A DNA stretch of 64,000 bases. Origin: Halorussus vallis. Lineage in GTDB: Archaea > Halobacteriota > Halobacteria > Halobacteriales > Haladaptataceae. The stretch covers positions 2,976,001 to 3,040,000 of the forward strand of contig NZ_CP100000.1 of the NCBI RefSeq assembly GCF_024138165.1, read 5' to 3'. Shown in pieces: positions 1,358 to 60,945 of this stretch. A program made the position numbers and the translations under genes. The notes below the pieces were generated by a model that saw only the letters and a program-made list of their open reading frames with translations, ran no database searches and had not been told where the DNA came from. Within the stretch, counting starts at the first letter, position 1, and the number at the start of each line of letters is the position of its first letter.

Positions 1358-1868
1358 CCGAGAGCGCCGACCGGACTACCGAATCCTCTTTTCGAATCTT
1401 CACCTTCGACGCGGCGCGCGCTGGCGCGACGCCGCGGTTTGGGGTCGCGACCATGCGCGCGAGGGATGACTGAACGAGCGCCGACGGCGCGAGTGAGGGA
1501 GTCGGCTGGGGAGGCGTGTGGCTGTCGCGGGGCGGTGCGGTACTCACTTGCATCGTGCAAGTAGCGGTCGCAGTTGCTGTCGGTCGTCTCGGTCGAGGTC
1601 GTCATCTGCGCTCCGGTTCACACGAGCAGCAGCCACCGTCGAGAGGTCGCGCGAGTCCCTGAGATAGTATCCCACAATAACACAGTTCTTACACCCAACC
1701 ACCGACTCTCCTCGAAGAACCGAACCTAAGCGTCCCGCAGAACGCTTCGATTCGATTCGCTGAGACGGCCTCAAATCGGTTAATCGACCCCGCTAGAGCG
1801 ACCTACAGCCGTAACTCCGTCCGCAAAGAGGGAGGCTTAAGTGTCTCCAACGGAAATCCACGAGCATA
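1358..1868. other. Gene-free stretch between the quinoprotein gene and rpsL
   Basis: No convincing gene is present. The stretch holds one forward arm of the type A element (about 1413-1585) and then the rpsL promoter. The sequence ggcttaagtg near 1831-1840 is a TATA-like box about 31 bases before the rpsL ATG. Short open frames here, including one with a CKNC motif on the minus strand, overlap the repeat and look accidental. Confidence 0.7.
1413..1585 (+). repeat. Type A dispersed element, single forward arm
   Basis: It begins with ggcgcgcgctggcgcgac, then has a gcgagggatgactga block, then tcggctggggaggcgtgtgg at 1502-1521, and ends in GCGGT-rich sequence followed by gtactcacttg. The same ordered blocks recur at seven other places in this window in both orientations. 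Spacing inside the arm varies. No open frame is conserved between copies. Confidence 0.8.
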
Positions 1869-3847: not shown

Positions 3848-4034
3848 GCGAGCAGAGGTTCGTCTTCCGGCGAGTAAAAGGTGGGTGTGGTACGGTCGGG
3901 GATGAGGAGTTCGCGTCGCCTGCTTCGAATCATCGCAACGGCCATTGAGAGGGACGATTCGAGAGCGTCTACCACTTCATCAGGAACGACAGCAACGACA
4001 CTGAACGTGACCACTCCGAAAGTCCCACCAACCG

Positions 4035-4122
4035 CAGACCGCACCGCCACACGCTTCCCCAGCCGACTCCCTCGCGTGCATGGGCGCGGCCGAAACCGCC
4101 ATCGACCGCGCCAGCGCGCGCC
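4035..4122 (-). repeat. Type A dispersed element, reverse arm (short copy)
   Basis: On the plus strand it reads accgcagaccgcaccgccac, then ccacacgcttccccagccga at 4047-4066, and ends with ccagcgcgcgcc at 4122. The gcgagggatga block is shortened compared with other copies. The copy ends about ten bases from the stop codon of the next minus-strand gene, so it sits in the 3' flank of that gene. Confidence 0.75.
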
Positions 4123-4132
4123 GTGTCGGAAA

Positions 4133-20239: not shown

Positions 20240-20433
20240 AAACCGCGACTGTCACTGCAATCGGGACCGCTACTGCAACTGCGACCGCCACTCGCACGAT
20301 ACAACTGAGTACCGCGCCGCCGCACCGCAACCGCAGACCACGCACCTCCCCAGCCGACTCCGTCGCGCCCTCCGGGCGCTCAGTCGTCCCTCGCGCGAGA
20401 TGGTCGCGCCACGAGGGCGCGACCGCGCGCGCC
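20240..20433 (-). repeat. Type A element, reverse arm of inverted pair 1
   Basis: The plus strand carries GCAACTGC/ACCGC-rich DNA, gtaccgcgccgccgcaccgc, ccacgcacctccccagccga at 20338-20357, then cctcgcgcgagatggtcgcg and finally gcgcgcgcc at 20433. These are the reverse complements of the forward-arm blocks. The reverse arm and the next forward arm face each other around a 40-base spacer. Confidence 0.8.
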
Positions 20434-20473
20434 GTGCCGGATGTGAAGATGCGCGAACCTAATTTTTGGTAAC

Positions 20474-20745
20474 GGCGCGCGCCGGCGTCCTCGTGAGCGA
20501 AGCGAACGGGGGCCCGTGGGAGCGAAGCTCCCACGGCGCGGCTTCATGCCGCGCCGAACCGCGCGAGGGATGAGCGAACGAGCGTCAGCGAGTGAGGGAA
20601 TCGGCTGGGGAGGCGTGTGGTTGCGGTGCGGTACTCATTTGGACCGTGTTAGCTTGCGGTTTCGTTGTCGTCGCGTTACGGTAGTTCTCGGAATTGGGCT
20701 GGTCTACGGTCGCGTCGCGGTCGCAGTCACACTGTTTCTGGTCGC
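20474..20745 (+). repeat. Type A element, forward arm of inverted pair 1
   Basis: It begins ggcgcgcgccggcg, carries an extra hairpin (gtgggagcgaagctcccac, near 20516-20534), then cgcgagggatgagcga, tcggctggggaggcgtgtgg at 20601-20620, and gcggtgcggtactcatttgg. It is the longest arm in the window. Confidence 0.8.
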
Positions 20746-36243: not shown

Positions 36244-36637
36244 CGCTTCGGCGGACTTGAACCGGGTTTCGGCAGACCGTCCTACCGATTGGCGCGCGCT
36301 GGCGCGACCTCGTGTCGCGCCTTCTCCGTGCGAGGGATGACCGAAGGAGCGAAGCGACTGAGGGAATCGGCTGGGGAGGCGTGTGGCGGTGGCGGTGCTG
36401 TTTCACTTGGTTCGTGCGAGTGGCGGTCTGCGGTGCGGTTGGCGGCCGCGGTCGCGGTGCAGTCTCTTTCAGCCATCGTGCAAGTCGTCGAACACGAGCC
36501 CGTTCACGGAACCACAGCGTTCGCGCTCGTCCGTAATGAGGAATCGTGCAGAAAACCCCGACGATACACGCTCACGCCTCCGTCTCGGCCGAGAAAAACC
36601 CAAAGTCCTACCATCCCGAGGCCCCTAGCCACTCCCA
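36244..36637. other. Gene-free stretch between the LVIVD gene and the Nfu gene
   Basis: It is dominated by a type A forward arm (36291-36490). The rest contains an AT-richer aaaacccaaagtcctacc stretch near 36595-36613 that probably belongs to the Nfu promoter. No gene is supported. Confidence 0.65.
36291..36490 (+). repeat. Type A dispersed element, single forward arm
   Basis: It begins ggcgcgcgctggcgcgac, then gtgcgagggatgaccga, tcggctggggaggcgtgtgg at 36367-36386 and a GCGGT-rich end with tttcacttggttcgtgcga. The 36291 start follows a stretch with no similarity to the other copies. Confidence 0.8.
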
Positions 36638-37000
36638 ATGAGCGAATCCGACGACTCCCTGCAGGCCCGGGTCGAGCGCTGGCTCACCGGCCAGATGCCC
36701 ATCATCAGCATGCACGGCGGCGAGAGCGCCGTCCAGAAGGCCGACCCCGACACCGGCGAGGTCGTCGTGGAACTCGGCGGGGCGTGCTCCGGTTGCGCCA
36801 TCAGCCCCCGGACCGCCCAGAACATCAAACTCGACCTCGTGAAGGACTTCGAGGAGGTCGAGGACGTGACGGTGCGAGTCGCCGACGACGGCACGGGCGA
36901 CTGGGACATCGACCAACCCGAGAGCGTCATGGGCATCGACCGCAACGAGGGCGGCCGCGGGGGCCGCGGCGAGGGGTCGCCGAACAGCGATTTCTTCTAG
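36638..37000 (+). CDS. NifU-like C-terminal domain protein (Nfu)
   Basis: This 120-residue protein carries an Nfu domain with [20 protein letters not shown] near residues 47-66; the CSGC motif binds a [4Fe-4S] cluster as a carrier. A C-terminal tail of Gly/Arg (GGRGGRGEG) follows the domain. Nfu proteins pass clusters to target enzymes. It is a single gene and the start [20 protein letters not shown] is clean. A type B hairpin element begins directly after the stop codon at 37000. Confidence 0.88.
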
Positions 37001-37160
37001 CCCACCTTTTTACTGCGTCGGGTCGCCGAGCAGGCCTCTGGCCTGCTCGGCGACCGCTCCTTGCAAAAAGCTGGACCAAAAAGGGACACGCGAGAGAGCC
37101 GAGTCGCCGCGGCGACTCGGCTCTCTTGCATCTTCGGACTGCTGGTGCGCGCGCCTTCGG
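37001..37160 (+). repeat. Type B hairpin element after the Nfu gene
   Basis: Starting right after the Nfu stop, ttttt (37007-37011) is matched by caaaaag (37064-37070). Between them is a perfect hairpin with 16-base arms at 37021-37036 and 37040-37055. A perfect 34-bp palindrome (37093-37126) follows, and a third hairpin, gcgcgc-cttcg-gcgcgc, lies near 37148-37165. The T5/A5 frame is shared with the element at 13.44-13.56 kb while the hairpins differ. Confidence 0.65.
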
Positions 37161-49738: not shown

Positions 49739-51223
49739 CTACAGCCCGTATATCTCCCCGAACTTCTCCTCGGCGTAGTCGAGGAAGTAGTCGGCGGTGA
49801 GGTCCTCGCCGGTCGCCCGCCGAATCAGTTCGTCGGTTTCGTACCGCCGGCCCGGCCGGTGGACGTGCTCGGTCAGCCACTCCCGAATGGGCGCGAAGTC
49901 GCCGTCCCGAATCAGCCCCCGCGGGTCGTCGAGTTCCTCCTCGATGGTCGCCCAGAGCTGTGCGGCCAGCACGCTGCCGACCGTGTAGTTCTGGAAGCGC
50001 GCGAAACCGCTGGTCCAGTGGATGTCCTGGAGACAGCCCGCGCTGTCGGTGTCGGGGCGGACTCCGAGGTACCGCTCCATCTTGTCGTTCCACGCGCTCG
50101 GTATCTCCGAAATCGCGAGGTCGCCCGAGACGAACTCCCGCTCTATCTCCGAGCGCAGGATGATGTGCATGTGGTAGGTGAGTTCGTCGGCCTCGACCCG
50201 AATCAGGTTGTCGTCGCGCACCCGGTTGGCGGCCCGGTAGGCCTCCTCGGGGGTGACGCCTTCCAGTTTCTCGGGGAAGTGCTCGCGGAACGTCGGCAGG
50301 AACAGCTCCCAGAACTCCCGGGTCCGACCGACGTGGTTCTCCCAGAAGCGCGACTGGGACTCGTGGACGCCCGACGACCGGGGTTTGCCGAGTGGCGATC
50401 CGTAAGTGTCCCGTCGGAGGCCGAGCCCGTAGGCCGCGTGGCCGAACTCGTGGATGGTCGCGGTCAGCGCGTCGACGGGGTCGTCCTCGTTGAACCGCGT
50501 CGTGATGCGGGCGTCGAACTGGGTGCCCGACATGAACGGGTGGGGCGCGGTGTCGAGGCGGCCGCGGTCCCAGTCGTAGCCCAGCAGGTCCAGGGCGTCC
50601 TCCGAGAGATCGCGCTGGCGCTCGGCGTCGAAGCGCCCCGAGAAGACTTCCGGAATCTCGTCGGCCGCCGAGATCTCCTCGATGAGCGGGACCAGTCCCT
50701 CCTTCAACTCCTCGAAGATGCGCTCGACCGTCGAGAGTTCGAGGGACGGCTCGCTGTCCTCGAACATCACCTCGTAGGGGTCCCGGGAGTCGTCGATGTG
50801 TTCGACGCGCTCGACGTGGAGGTCGACCAGCCGTTCGAGGGTCGGTTCGAACGCCCCGAAGTCGTCGTTGGCCTTCGCCTCCCGCCAGTCGTCCTGGGCT
50901 TCCGACTGGAGGCGCGCGAGTTCCGCGACCAGGTCGCCCGGCACGTCGGTCGCGCGGTCGTACTCGCGGCGGATCTCCCGGAGGACCGCCGCCCGCTCGT
51001 CGTCCGGGTCCTCGGCCTCGGCGGCGTCGAGCAGGCGGCCGGTTTCGTCGTCGGTCAACTGCTCGTGGCCGAGGCTCGACAGCGTGGCCAACTGCTCGGA
51101 CCGGGCGGGCGTGCCGCCCTCGGGCATCGCCACCTGCTGATCCCAGTAGAGGACGCCGGCGCCGTCCTGCAGGTAGCTGAGTCGCTCGTAGCGGTCGAGG
51201 AGGTCGTCGTAGGCGTCTGCCAT
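49739..51223 (-). CDS. M32 carboxypeptidase 1 (thermostable carboxypeptidase Taq family)
   Basis: This 494-residue zinc peptidase removes residues from the C-terminus of peptides. The zinc motif is IHEFGHAAYG near residues 255-264 (HExxH), with the third ligand in HESQSRFWENHVG. YLGVRPDTDSAGCLQDIHW and FQNYTVGSVLAAQLWATIEE are other family blocks. It starts MADAYDDLLDRYERLSYLQD and lacks a signal peptide, so it is cytoplasmic. A close paralogue lies at 53360-54892 with two lipoprotein genes between them. The short stop-side gap is marked by the candidate RNA. Confidence 0.93.
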   Translation of the reverse strand: MADAYDDLLDRYERLSYLQDGAGVLYWDQQVAMPEGGTPARSEQLATLSSLGHEQLTDDETGRLLDAAEAEDPDDERAAVLREIRREYDRATDVPGDLVAELARLQSEAQDDWREAKANDDFGAFEPTLERLVDLHVERVEHIDDSRDPYEVMFEDSEPSLELSTVERIFEELKEGLVPLIEEISAADEIPEVFSGRFDAERQRDLSEDALDLLGYDWDRGRLDTAPHPFMSGTQFDARITTRFNEDDPVDALTATIHEFGHAAYGLGLRRDTYGSPLGKPRSSGVHESQSRFWENHVGRTREFWELFLPTFREHFPEKLEGVTPEEAYRAANRVRDDNLIRVEADELTYHMHIILRSEIEREFVSGDLAISEIPSAWNDKMERYLGVRPDTDSAGCLQDIHWTSGFARFQNYTVGSVLAAQLWATIEEELDDPRGLIRDGDFAPIREWLTEHVHRPGRRYETDELIRRATGEDLTADYFLDYAEEKFGEIYGL

Positions 51224-53359: not shown

Positions 53360-54892
53360 TTACTGGTACTCGTCGAGTTCGTACAGGTCGCCGTACTTGG
53401 CCTTCGCGTAGTCGAGGAAGTGGTCGGCGGTGTACTCCTCGCCGGTCGCCCGCTCGATGAGGTCGTCGGTGGTGTACCGACTGCCGTGCCGGTGGACGTT
53501 CTCGGTCAGCCAGTCGTGGAGCGGTTCGAAGTCGCCCTCGGCGATCTTCTCGTCGATGTCCTCGACGTCGTCCTGGATGCTGTCGTAGAGCTGTGCGGCC
53601 AGCACGCTCCCCAGCGAGTAGGTCGGGAAGTAGCCGAAGTCGCCGTGGCTCCAGTGGATGTCCTGCAGACAGCCGTCGGCGTCGGTGTCGGGGCGCACGC
53701 CGAGGTACTCTTCGTACTTGTCGTTCCAGACCTCCGGCACGTCCTCGACGTCGAGGTCGCCCCGGATGAGGTCGCGCTCGATTTCGAACCGGACCACGAT
53801 GTGCATGTGGTAGGTGAGTTCGTCCGCCTCGACCCGAATCAGATTGTCCTCGTACACCTGGTTGGCGGCCTCGTAGACGTCCTCGACCGAGGCGTCCTCG
53901 AGCTTTTCGGGGAACCGCTCGCGCATCGTCGGCAGGAACCGCTCCCAGAATGGCGCCGAGCGCCCGACGTGGTTCTCCCAGAGGCGCGACTGGGACTCGT
54001 GGACGGTCATGTCGCGGGACTCGCCCAGCGGCGTGCCGTAGTCCTCGCGGGGCAGGCCGAGCGTGTAGGTCGCGTGGCCGAACTCGTGGATGGTGCTCAT
54101 CAGCGCGCCCAGCGGGTCCTCCTCGTTGAACCGCGTGGTGACCCGGGCGTCGAACTGGTTGCCAGTCGAGAACGGGTGGGGCGCAGTGTCGAGGCGGCCG
54201 TGGTCCCAGTCGTAGCCCAGCGTGTCGAGCACGTCGCGGGCCAGTTCCTCCTGGGTGTCGACGTCGTACTCGCCTTCGAAGGTGTCGGTGGCGAGGTCGG
54301 CGTCCGACTCCCGGACCGCCTCGACCAGCGGGACGAGTTCGTCGCGGAGCCGTTGGAGCACTTCCTCGGCCTTCTCGATGCCGAGGTACGGCTCGTAGTC
54401 CTCGAACAGCACCTCGTAGGGGTCGCGGTCGGGGTCGATGTGCTCGGCGTACTCGCGCTTGAGTTCGACCAACTTCTCGAGCGTGGGCGCGAACGTCTCG
54501 AAGTCGTCCTCCTCGCGGGCCTCCTTCCAGACCGGCATCGCCTCCGAGGAGACCTCCGAGATTTCCTTCACGAGCTCCTCGGGCACCTTCGCCGCCCGGT
54601 CGTGCTTGCGGCGAATCTCGCGGACGACCGCCTCGCGCTCGGCGTCCAGGTCCTCGGCTTCGAGTTCGTCGAGCAGGTCGGCCATCTCGTCGGACGTGAG
54701 CAGTTCGTGGCTCAGCGTCGAGAGCGTCGAGCGCTGTTGGGACCGGGCGGGCGTGCCGCCCTCGGGCATCATGACCTCCTGGTCCCACCCGAGCACGCCC
54801 CCGGCCTGGGCGATGTTCGAGAGTCGCTGCACCTTCTGCACGAACGCCTCGTACGCGTCTGACGCCTCGTCCGCGGCGGCTTCGCTTGCCAT
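53360..54892 (-). CDS. M32 carboxypeptidase 2 (paralogue)
   Basis: This 510-residue zinc carboxypeptidase starts MASEAAADEASDAYEAFVQK. The zinc motif is IHEFGHATYTLGLPRE and the third ligand is in TVHESQSRLWENHVGRSA. Blocks such as MPEGGTPARSQQ, IRVEADELTYHMHI and YLGVRPDTDADGCLQDIHW are shared with the copy at 49739-51223, so both are intact and descend from one duplication. The N-terminus is extended by about 16 residues compared with copy 1. No signal peptide is seen, so it is cytoplasmic. Confidence 0.93.
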   Translation of the reverse strand: MASEAAADEASDAYEAFVQKVQRLSNIAQAGGVLGWDQEVMMPEGGTPARSQQRSTLSTLSHELLTSDEMADLLDELEAEDLDAEREAVVREIRRKHDRAAKVPEELVKEISEVSSEAMPVWKEAREEDDFETFAPTLEKLVELKREYAEHIDPDRDPYEVLFEDYEPYLGIEKAEEVLQRLRDELVPLVEAVRESDADLATDTFEGEYDVDTQEELARDVLDTLGYDWDHGRLDTAPHPFSTGNQFDARVTTRFNEEDPLGALMSTIHEFGHATYTLGLPREDYGTPLGESRDMTVHESQSRLWENHVGRSAPFWERFLPTMRERFPEKLEDASVEDVYEAANQVYEDNLIRVEADELTYHMHIVVRFEIERDLIRGDLDVEDVPEVWNDKYEEYLGVRPDTDADGCLQDIHWSHGDFGYFPTYSLGSVLAAQLYDSIQDDVEDIDEKIAEGDFEPLHDWLTENVHRHGSRYTTDDLIERATGEEYTADHFLDYAKAKYGDLYELDEYQ

Positions 54893-56248: not shown

Positions 56249-56403
56249 GTCTCTGTTGAGGGCGTGCGGAGATTTCAAATCGATGGTGGCTAGGGTGGGT
56301 GTTCGTCGACGCTGGAGCCGGTCGATTCGACGATGCGACGAGTGTTGTCAACTTTGCACGAGCCAAAGCACGTCGAATGGAAGACGAGACGCTAGCTACT
56401 CGC

Positions 56404-56547
56404 GATGCAAATGAGTACCTGCACCGCAACCGCATTGCGACAGCCACACGCCTCCCCAGCCGACTCCCTCGTTCGCTCCTAACAGTCGCTCACTCGGTCA
56501 TCCCTCGCGCGGAATGGTCGCGCCACGAGGGCGCGACCGCGCGCGCC
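56404..56547 (-). repeat. Type A element, reverse arm of inverted pair 2
   Basis: The plus strand runs gatgcaaatgagtacctgca, ccgcaaccgcattgcgacag, then ccacacgcctccccagccga at 56444-56463, catccctcgcgcggaatgg, and ends gcgcgcgcc at 56547. It faces the next forward arm across a 41-base spacer. Confidence 0.8.
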
Positions 56548-56588
56548 ACGTCGGACGTAGAGATTCACGAACTACCATCTCTGGTCAC

Positions 56589-56790
56589 GGCGCGCGCTGG
56601 CGCGACTTCGCGGTCACGCGAGCGAAGCGAGGGTGACCTCGGAAGACGCGGGTTGTCTTCCGGCAGTTTGGAGTCGCGCCTTCGTTGCGCGAGGGATGAC
56701 CGAGTGCCCCGTAGGGGCACGAAAGAATCGGTTGGGGAGGCGTGTGGTCTGCGGTGGCGGTTGCGGTGAGGTTACTCACTGGAGTCGTGC
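56589..56790 (+). repeat. Type A element, forward arm of inverted pair 2
   Basis: It begins ggcgcgcgctggcgcgac, carries an extra hairpin-like gaagacgcgggttgtcttc, then cgcgagggatgaccgag, tcggttggggaggcgtgtgg at 56728-56747 and the GCGGT-rich end with ggttactcactgg. Confidence 0.8.
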
Positions 56791-56880
56791 TAGTCCTCGC
56801 TACCGTTACTTCGACCTCATTCGACGAAGTTCTGTTACGTTCGCTGTAACTCACTACTCATACTCCGAAACCGTTTGCGT

Positions 56881-60402: not shown

Positions 60403-60945
60403 ACTCGAGATAGGTCGCCGAACCGATTGAACCTTGTTGCCGGGAGGGCGGGCGAGTCGGGGTCGGACCGTTCTTCTCGCTTCGACTTTGTGGCCGCCGT
60501 TCGTGCGGTTCGGCTCCGGTGGTGGGGCGAATGTGACGGCGACGGATGCTGTTTGTTCGATGTCGGTACTCGTTCGTGGATGTAAGTAGACGACCGACGG
60601 CCAGATTTCCCCGTCGGAGCGTGAGAGTCGTCAAAGACGCTATTATCGGGGACTAACACGACTCAAATGAGTACCCGCACCGCAACCGCGACGGCCACAC
60701 GCCTCCCCAACCGATTCGCTCGTTCGCTCCGCTCACTCGCTCATCCCTCGCGCGAATTGGCGAGACACGAGGTCACGCCAGCGCGCGCCGAATACGCAAG
60801 GACGAATTGAGCGTTCGCAGCGGACGACCGCCGATTCGAGCCTACGAAAACCGCCGGACGAGAACGAGTCCCACAGCCCGCTTCTCCGGCGCGAACCCGC
60901 GGCTCGAAGCGTAGCCTTATCAACGCGCCGCCCGAATAAATGGCC
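60403..60945. other. Gene-free stretch before the PINc-ATPase gene
   Basis: It contains the reverse type A arm at 60663-60789 and the PINc-ATPase promoter (gccttatcaa at about 60914-60923, about 28 bases before the ATG). The left 260 bases show nothing that I can name. Confidence 0.6.
60663..60789 (-). repeat. Type A dispersed element, single reverse arm
   Basis: The plus strand runs tcaaatgagtacccgcaccg, caaccgcgacgg, ccacacgcctccccaaccga at 60695-60714, catccctcgcgcgaattgg and ends gccagcgcgcgcc at 60789. No forward arm follows. Confidence 0.78.

Follow-up and report, generated by a model that had tools for sequence, protein, structure and literature searches.

Hairpin-bearing repeat arms, single and in head-to-head pairs, form an apparently undescribed interspersed family in Halorussus vallis and other Halobacteriales

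The 64,000-nucleotide stretch of the Halorussus vallis genome considered here (contig NZ_CP100000.1, positions 2,976,001 to 3,040,000; hereafter the window, with coordinates counted from its first letter) contains two head-to-head pairs of repeat arms, at 20291–20652 and 56397–56793, whose arms read outward from a centre of 40 or 41 bases. Both pairs had been proposed from the letters alone, and both are present; the extent first given for pair 1, 20240–20745, does hold the pair but is slightly too wide, its margins being degenerate GCGGT-type repeats. Arm A2 of pair 1 occupies 20291–20433 on the reverse strand, with its core at 20338–20357 and a GGA loop in hairpin 2, and its parts run from the outer end CTCAGTTGTATCGTGCGAG through GCGGT repeats, core, hairpin 2, GCGAGGGACGA and hairpin 1 (GGTCGCGCC-CTCGT-GGCGCGACC) to the start GGCGCGCGC. 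The directional 40-nt centre, GTGCCGGATGTGAAGATGCGCGAACCTAATTTTTGGTAAC, follows at 20434–20473 on the forward strand, and then arm A1 at 20474–20652 (forward strand; core 20601–20620; outer end CTCATTTGGACCGTGTTAG). Pair 2 is composed of arm A2 at 56397–56547 (reverse strand; core 56444–56463; outer end CTCATTTGCATCGCGAGTA), a directional 41-nt centre at 56548–56588 (forward strand) and arm A1 at 56589–56793 (forward strand; core 56728–56747).

Each of the two A1 arms also harbors a double-hairpin module with the plan hairpin, GCTCG, hairpin, GGYGG, inserted 5′ of hairpin 1 in pair 1 (20483–20550) and within the hairpin 1 loop in pair 2 (56605–56660). The module recurs at L054, L055, L069, L077, and L078, and in several arms its position is either inside the loop of hairpin 1 or precisely at GCGAGG^GATGA. 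Single arms are found in the window as well: one at 1413–1561 (forward strand), with about 20 nt upstream (about 1392–1412) that resemble half a centre; a degenerate one that lacks hairpin 2 at about 3990–4129 (reverse strand; ends approximate; core 4047–4066); and A1 arms without a centre at 36291–36420 (forward strand) and 60653–60789 (reverse strand). Elsewhere in the window, 36995–37081 belongs to a second dispersed family of about 150 bp, CCTTTTTTGGTCCAGCTTTTTTCGAGGAG-hairpin-GACGAAGAAAAAAGGTGG, which is also seen at L043, L048, L049, L079, and L080, ends near the stop codon of the adjoining gene, and looks like a 3′-end or terminator element. The neighboring genes at 49739–51223 and 53360–54892, about 71–78% alike in DNA, are a tandem gene duplication.

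Read from the inside outward, an arm consists of GGCGCGCGC, hairpin 1, GCGAGGGAYGA (GCGCGAGGGAYGA), hairpin 2, the core TCGGYTGGGGAGGCGTGTGG, and a tail made of a variable GCGGT run, which in most copies finishes with TACTCATTTGnATCGTGCRAG. The whole is non-coding and measures about 130–200 bp, its two hairpins adjoining an invariant core that contains GGGGAGG. The genome carries at least 60 such loci with about 75 arms, the locus count being a lower bound as the copies were gathered by search. Used as DNA blastn query, 20240–20745 returns 116 genome matches at E<=0.001 and the second pair returns 113, while the 20-base core has 82 matches with at most one mismatch and its reversed control none. 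A scan of 54 fetched stretches together with the window yielded 19 clean pairs and 36 single cores; under a wider definition of the core, 22 pairs with a centre are found in the genome. All 55 scored pairs and solos are intergenic according to gene calls from a simple codon model, and no clear rule governs their orientation relative to flanking genes at these 55 loci, tandem, divergent, and convergent gaps being used roughly as they occur.

Of 392 Halobacteriales genomes sampled, searches with the core find the arm in 88, which belong to 25 of the 95 genera of this order covered; named genera with the arm are Halorussus, Halosimplex, Haladaptatus, Haloarchaeobius, Halosegnis, Halococcus, Haloarcula, Natronomonas, and Halolamina; none of 242 genomes sampled from the rest of the phylum has it. 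Two bacterial MAG contigs among the arm-bearing records are probably mis-binned. Within one genus the number of cores ranges from 0 to 82, and copies are mostly 65–85% alike, which gives no sign of very recent spread. A viral contig collection contained no exact core, and viral carriage of the arms was set aside on that ground. In one genome, direct core copies are arrayed in tandem every 29 bp, and in another they lie about 90 bp apart (G067:C1:117144-117250; G093:C20:112650-112759). A GGGYGGGACTGAAAGGGGCCGCCCGCTCGCG-like motif that seems to be another repeat module lies 3′ of many arms in other taxonomic families and of some here (L127, L130, L131, L133, L037, L045, L046, L096).

The two spacers, originally judged alike by eye, are indeed alike: their alignment score was reached by none of 3,000 random pairs of 42-mers from the window. 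This similarity persists as more copies are added, with a mean pairwise centre score of 0.374 over 22 pairs, compared to 0.151 for shuffled centres (maximum over 50 shuffles, 0.168). Once every second centre is reversed the mean falls to 0.259, and the centre is therefore directional. In nearly all pairs A2 lies on the CCGGC side of the centre and A1 on the GGTCAC side, the two subtypes being marked by the start of hairpin 1, GGTCGC or similar in A2 and TGGCGCG in A1. The alignment, which comprised the 22 centres of the Halorussus vallis genome and five distinct congener centres, contains no TATA-like conserved block. A centre pattern of two GC-rich blocks 34–46 nt apart occurs 19 times here and 13, 9, 7, 7, 6, 6, and 6 times in seven other genomes of the taxonomic family, and elsewhere in the order, outside that family, it is at background level only. 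Across 55 centres from eight genomes and two genera, a TTCnCGAA-like middle tends to persist. Centres thus recur in Halorussus congeners and in a sister genus, which is probably Haladaptatus, judging by a matching position in Haladaptatus halobius.

An inverted pair with a kept centre had been taken to imply that the intact unit is one long imperfect palindrome and that single arms are its half-copies. The pair is a recurrent composite, counted 22 times here and with additional instances in related genomes, but the view that it is the intact unit is not supported: ten other genera supplied 30 copies, of which 29 are solo arms. Because of these solos and the background level of the centre pattern outside the taxonomic family, the more widespread unit is the single arm, which is also the basic one; Halorussus and its sister genus carry a paired A2-centre-A1 composite. 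Some solos do keep half a centre and are truncated pairs, as the half-copy idea would have it, but many A1 solos have none. The expectation that other genomes might show only solo arms nearly holds outside the family, where the sole head-to-head pair among the thirty copies (L141, in G104 of another family) has a 26-nt spacer, lying between GCGCGCC and GGCGCGTGC, that is unlike the Halorussus centre in appearance; it fails in congeners and the sister genus, where pairs are present. Similarity between pair mates (0.480) does not exceed that between A2 and A1 arms drawn from separate pairs (0.491; P=0.79; L034 and L069 excluded for ambiguous orientation), and a long palindrome as the selected unit is rejected on that ground. 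The complementarity that is kept resides in local hairpins within each arm, without co-evolution between pair mates.

In these hairpins, substitutions are compensated. Over 25 distinct uninserted arms, 99% of hairpin 1 cells are paired, compared to 72% after shuffling, its covariation score is 0.648 against 0.143 for shuffled alignments, and both sides have changed in six of eight pairs; hairpin 2, with a recurrent tandem G.A step, scores 0.443 against 0.181 (21 arms), and both alignments lean towards structure because the structure was read from the same sequences, slid controls giving at most 0.17. An independent test with fixed windows found each copy's own partners 95% complementary; after partners were swapped between copies the figure was 73.5%, and the highest among 200 swaps was 77.7%. 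The swap test is weak for hairpin 2 because it ignores tandem G.A pairs, and the aligned count is used for it instead. The folding check suggested at the outset, carried out on the pair as a DNA strand, gives a predicted −127 kcal/mol (z −8.9), with the local hairpins formed and the invariant blocks paired from one arm to the other; by this model, the pair can fold as a branched inverted repeat via those blocks.

Either selection or template switching could also account for hairpins being preserved in divergent copies. In one alternative account the arms are selfish hairpins sustained by DNA mechanics: quasi-palindromes would be propagated and mended through template switching and gene conversion, no dedicated enzyme being needed, and the compensatory changes would be mutational, not selective. 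Stems that are re-drawn between copies with complementarity retained, double-hairpin modules residing inside hairpin loops, and loops of the kind that favors DNA snap-back are all consistent with such an origin. It leaves unexplained, however, why the 20-base core, which is not a palindrome, is invariant, why the centre has a direction, and why the order is usually A2-centre-A1, and we consider this account unlikely.

The hairpin loops bear on the level at which constraint acts. Among 62 hairpin 2 loops in the genome, 32 are c(GNA)g and 14 are c(GNYA)g, and neither c(GNRA)g nor UNCG occurs; the N of the GNA loops is free (GGA 15, GCA 13, GAA 7, GTA 4). The c(GNA)g loop is found in seven of 14 arms of other taxonomic families and, as a control, in eight of 233 non-arm hairpins of the same loci. 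On G-C stems, GNA and GNNA loops produce extraordinarily stable DNA mini-hairpins (PMC4686876), whereas the stable loops of RNA are GNRA and UNCG (PMC11773311). Wobble is not in excess among single mismatches in four arm sets (G.T 10 vs. A.C 9), and it accounts for three of 336 helix cells in a count made without an RNA-positive control. A TATA-like box lies upstream of one of the 36 solo arms here. Given the GNA and GNNA loops, the near absence of wobble, and the lack of a visible promoter, a DNA-level role is favored over an RNA-level one, with the constraint on the arms probably acting on DNA. The second repeat family found here also has some GNA loops, and the preference for them may therefore not be element-specific.

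The same data weigh on the proposal that the arms are a structured non-coding RNA or UTR element, transcribed and acting as RNA, with the centre of the pairs serving as a divergent promoter. Two covarying hairpins with an invariant core are the typical look of an RNA family, the arms do diverge from the centre, and in one other genome a TTTATAAAT-like box lies immediately upstream of several copies (L126, L136, L146). Set against these are loops of DNA rather than GNRA or UNCG type, G.U pairs that are not in excess, the rarity of TATA-like motifs at solos and their absence as a conserved block from the centre, and an inconsistent orientation to flanking genes, which together make an RNA element distinctly improbable. 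Rfam 15 covariance models at the gathering threshold return only tRNA in the window, and the arms are accordingly not assigned to a known RNA family. A terminator or promoter role was also rejected, there being no orientation rule and no enrichment of TATA in this genome.

The same intergenic sites are occupied in some congeners and empty in others, so that sites have been gained or lost between species. The 56.4-kb site is empty in the congener G082, where 64 bp separate the same two genes that are 632 bp apart here, and the 60.7-kb arm sits in a gap that is 513 bp long here and, empty of the arm, 64 bp long in G082. The 20.3-kb site is occupied by a pair in G082 (same flanking genes, similar centre, reshuffled hairpins), a solo in G108, a different mosaic in G074, and tail-to-tail arms in G058, and it is empty in three further congeners (G041, G176, G130). 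Flanks of the empty sites are too diverged to define a junction or a target-site duplication, and the exact element boundary is likewise undefined. A chromosomal element selected at each site, as a protein-binding or fork-stalling structure for chromosome organization, would agree with the G082 pair between the same genes, with the invariant core and directional centre, and with the location of about 58 of 60 blastn clusters on the main chromosome C1 (78% of the genome, the other replicons being C2–C5; a bias judged from the best-scoring copies only), but 0 to 82 cores within one genus and site gain and loss between congeners are hard to reconcile with an essential organizer, and we deem it no more probable than an RNA element.

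A non-autonomous element, as in the original prediction, remains the best reading, although its partner enzyme was not found among Y1 transposases, reverse transcriptases, TnpB, and neighbor genes. The Y1 (HUH) transposase domain PF01797 is absent from the high-copy genomes G041, G108, G031, and G152 (26–37 cores each), and a RAYT partner of the Y1_Tnp type was rejected on that basis, and the reverse transcriptase PF00078 was detected in none of 28 genomes of the taxonomic family, which argues against retro-mobilization or a group II-derived repeat. A blastn comparison of 74 arms with nine TnpB loci and the Y1 loci gave only hairpin-motif matches of 22–40 bases; the arms do not match TnpB element ends and were not retained as PATEs of the local TnpB elements. 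In an all-against-all ORF comparison around about 120 loci no recurrent neighbor gene emerged, the top cluster being a second non-coding repeat, and a linked cargo or partner gene was dropped.

We give about an even chance to the reading that the arms are a non-autonomous, REP/BIME-like family of DNA-hairpin elements mobilized in trans through single-stranded DNA. Where replication or extrusion exposes a strand, the arms would fold into very stable DNA hairpins; a trans-acting enzyme might then recognize hairpin and core as single-stranded DNA and excise or copy the unit to other intergenic sites. In the composite, A2 and A1 arms are joined head to head around the centre, much as bacterial REPs are joined into BIMEs. 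This reading sets a putative enzyme, putative cut sites, and putative transposition beside the observed repeat family, with its compensatory structure, DNA-type loops, intergenic location, and occupied and empty sites. A more specific proposal, plausible though doubtful, holds that single-stranded DNA folded into GNA/GNNA mini-hairpins is what is under constraint, in a mobilization or chromosome-handling route whose candidate enzyme would be neither Y1/RAYT nor a reverse transcriptase; if true, it would be an archaeal route not described before.

The original suggestion of a candidate undescribed element is supported, with no Rfam match and no description in the literature searched: no paper carrying the core was found there, and a search for haloarchaeal interspersed repeats yielded only the Haloquadratum PATE/SMR work. 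The arms thus apparently constitute an order-wide, multi-hairpin interspersed repeat family that had not been described before; few REP/BIME-like repeat systems are known from archaea, and the literature searched contained none. A numerous and structured family of this breadth, with a solo unit and a directional-centre composite, offers a ready comparative system. Its loop and wobble statistics provide a test of DNA versus RNA constraint on a repeat family, and the partner enzyme still to be found is a well-defined goal, since one would expect a gene whose occurrence follows copy number from genome to genome in the sample.

Among known systems, MITEs are similarly short, non-coding, and apparently non-autonomous, and their inverted-repeat layout has a counterpart in the paired form; in contrast to MITEs, single arms are spread without a second inverted end, and no matching transposon ends were found among the TnpB and Y1 loci compared. 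Fungal mitochondrial double-hairpin elements likewise consist of two neighboring hairpins, lie in intergenic DNA and look mobile, a likeness that serves as a lead only and concerns a different domain of life. In Haloquadratum walsbyi, PATEs and SMRs are transposase-free interspersed repeats; palindromes of other elements serve as insertion sites for SMR-A, and the PATE palindromes, near the PATE termini, are related to those of IS605-type transposons (PMC3119063). Double-hairpin modules inside arm hairpins resemble SMR-A within palindromes, but the arms show no match to the TnpB elements found here, and their hairpin-hairpin-core plan differs from the near-terminal palindromes of PATEs.

Bacterial REPs and BIMEs are small, intergenic, high-copy hairpin repeats with RAYT transposases, found alone or in inverted pairs joined by a short linker; a REP unit is 20–40 nt long, with GTAG or GGAG at the foot of its hairpin and a short conserved G-rich motif beside it. 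The arms are likewise high-copy, intergenic, and hairpin-forming, they form inverted pairs around a linker (22 here, with the centre pattern in further members of the taxonomic family), and a conserved G-rich motif adjoins the hairpin. They differ in a larger unit of 130–200 bp with two hairpins, in a GGAG placed in the core 3′ of hairpin 2 rather than in the REP layout, in the absence of PF01797 from the four high-copy genomes, in a centre that is conserved and directional, and in an archaeal host. Because of the unit layout and the missing RAYT, we do not file the arms as members of REP/BIME, although these bacterial repeats are the closest to them in working.
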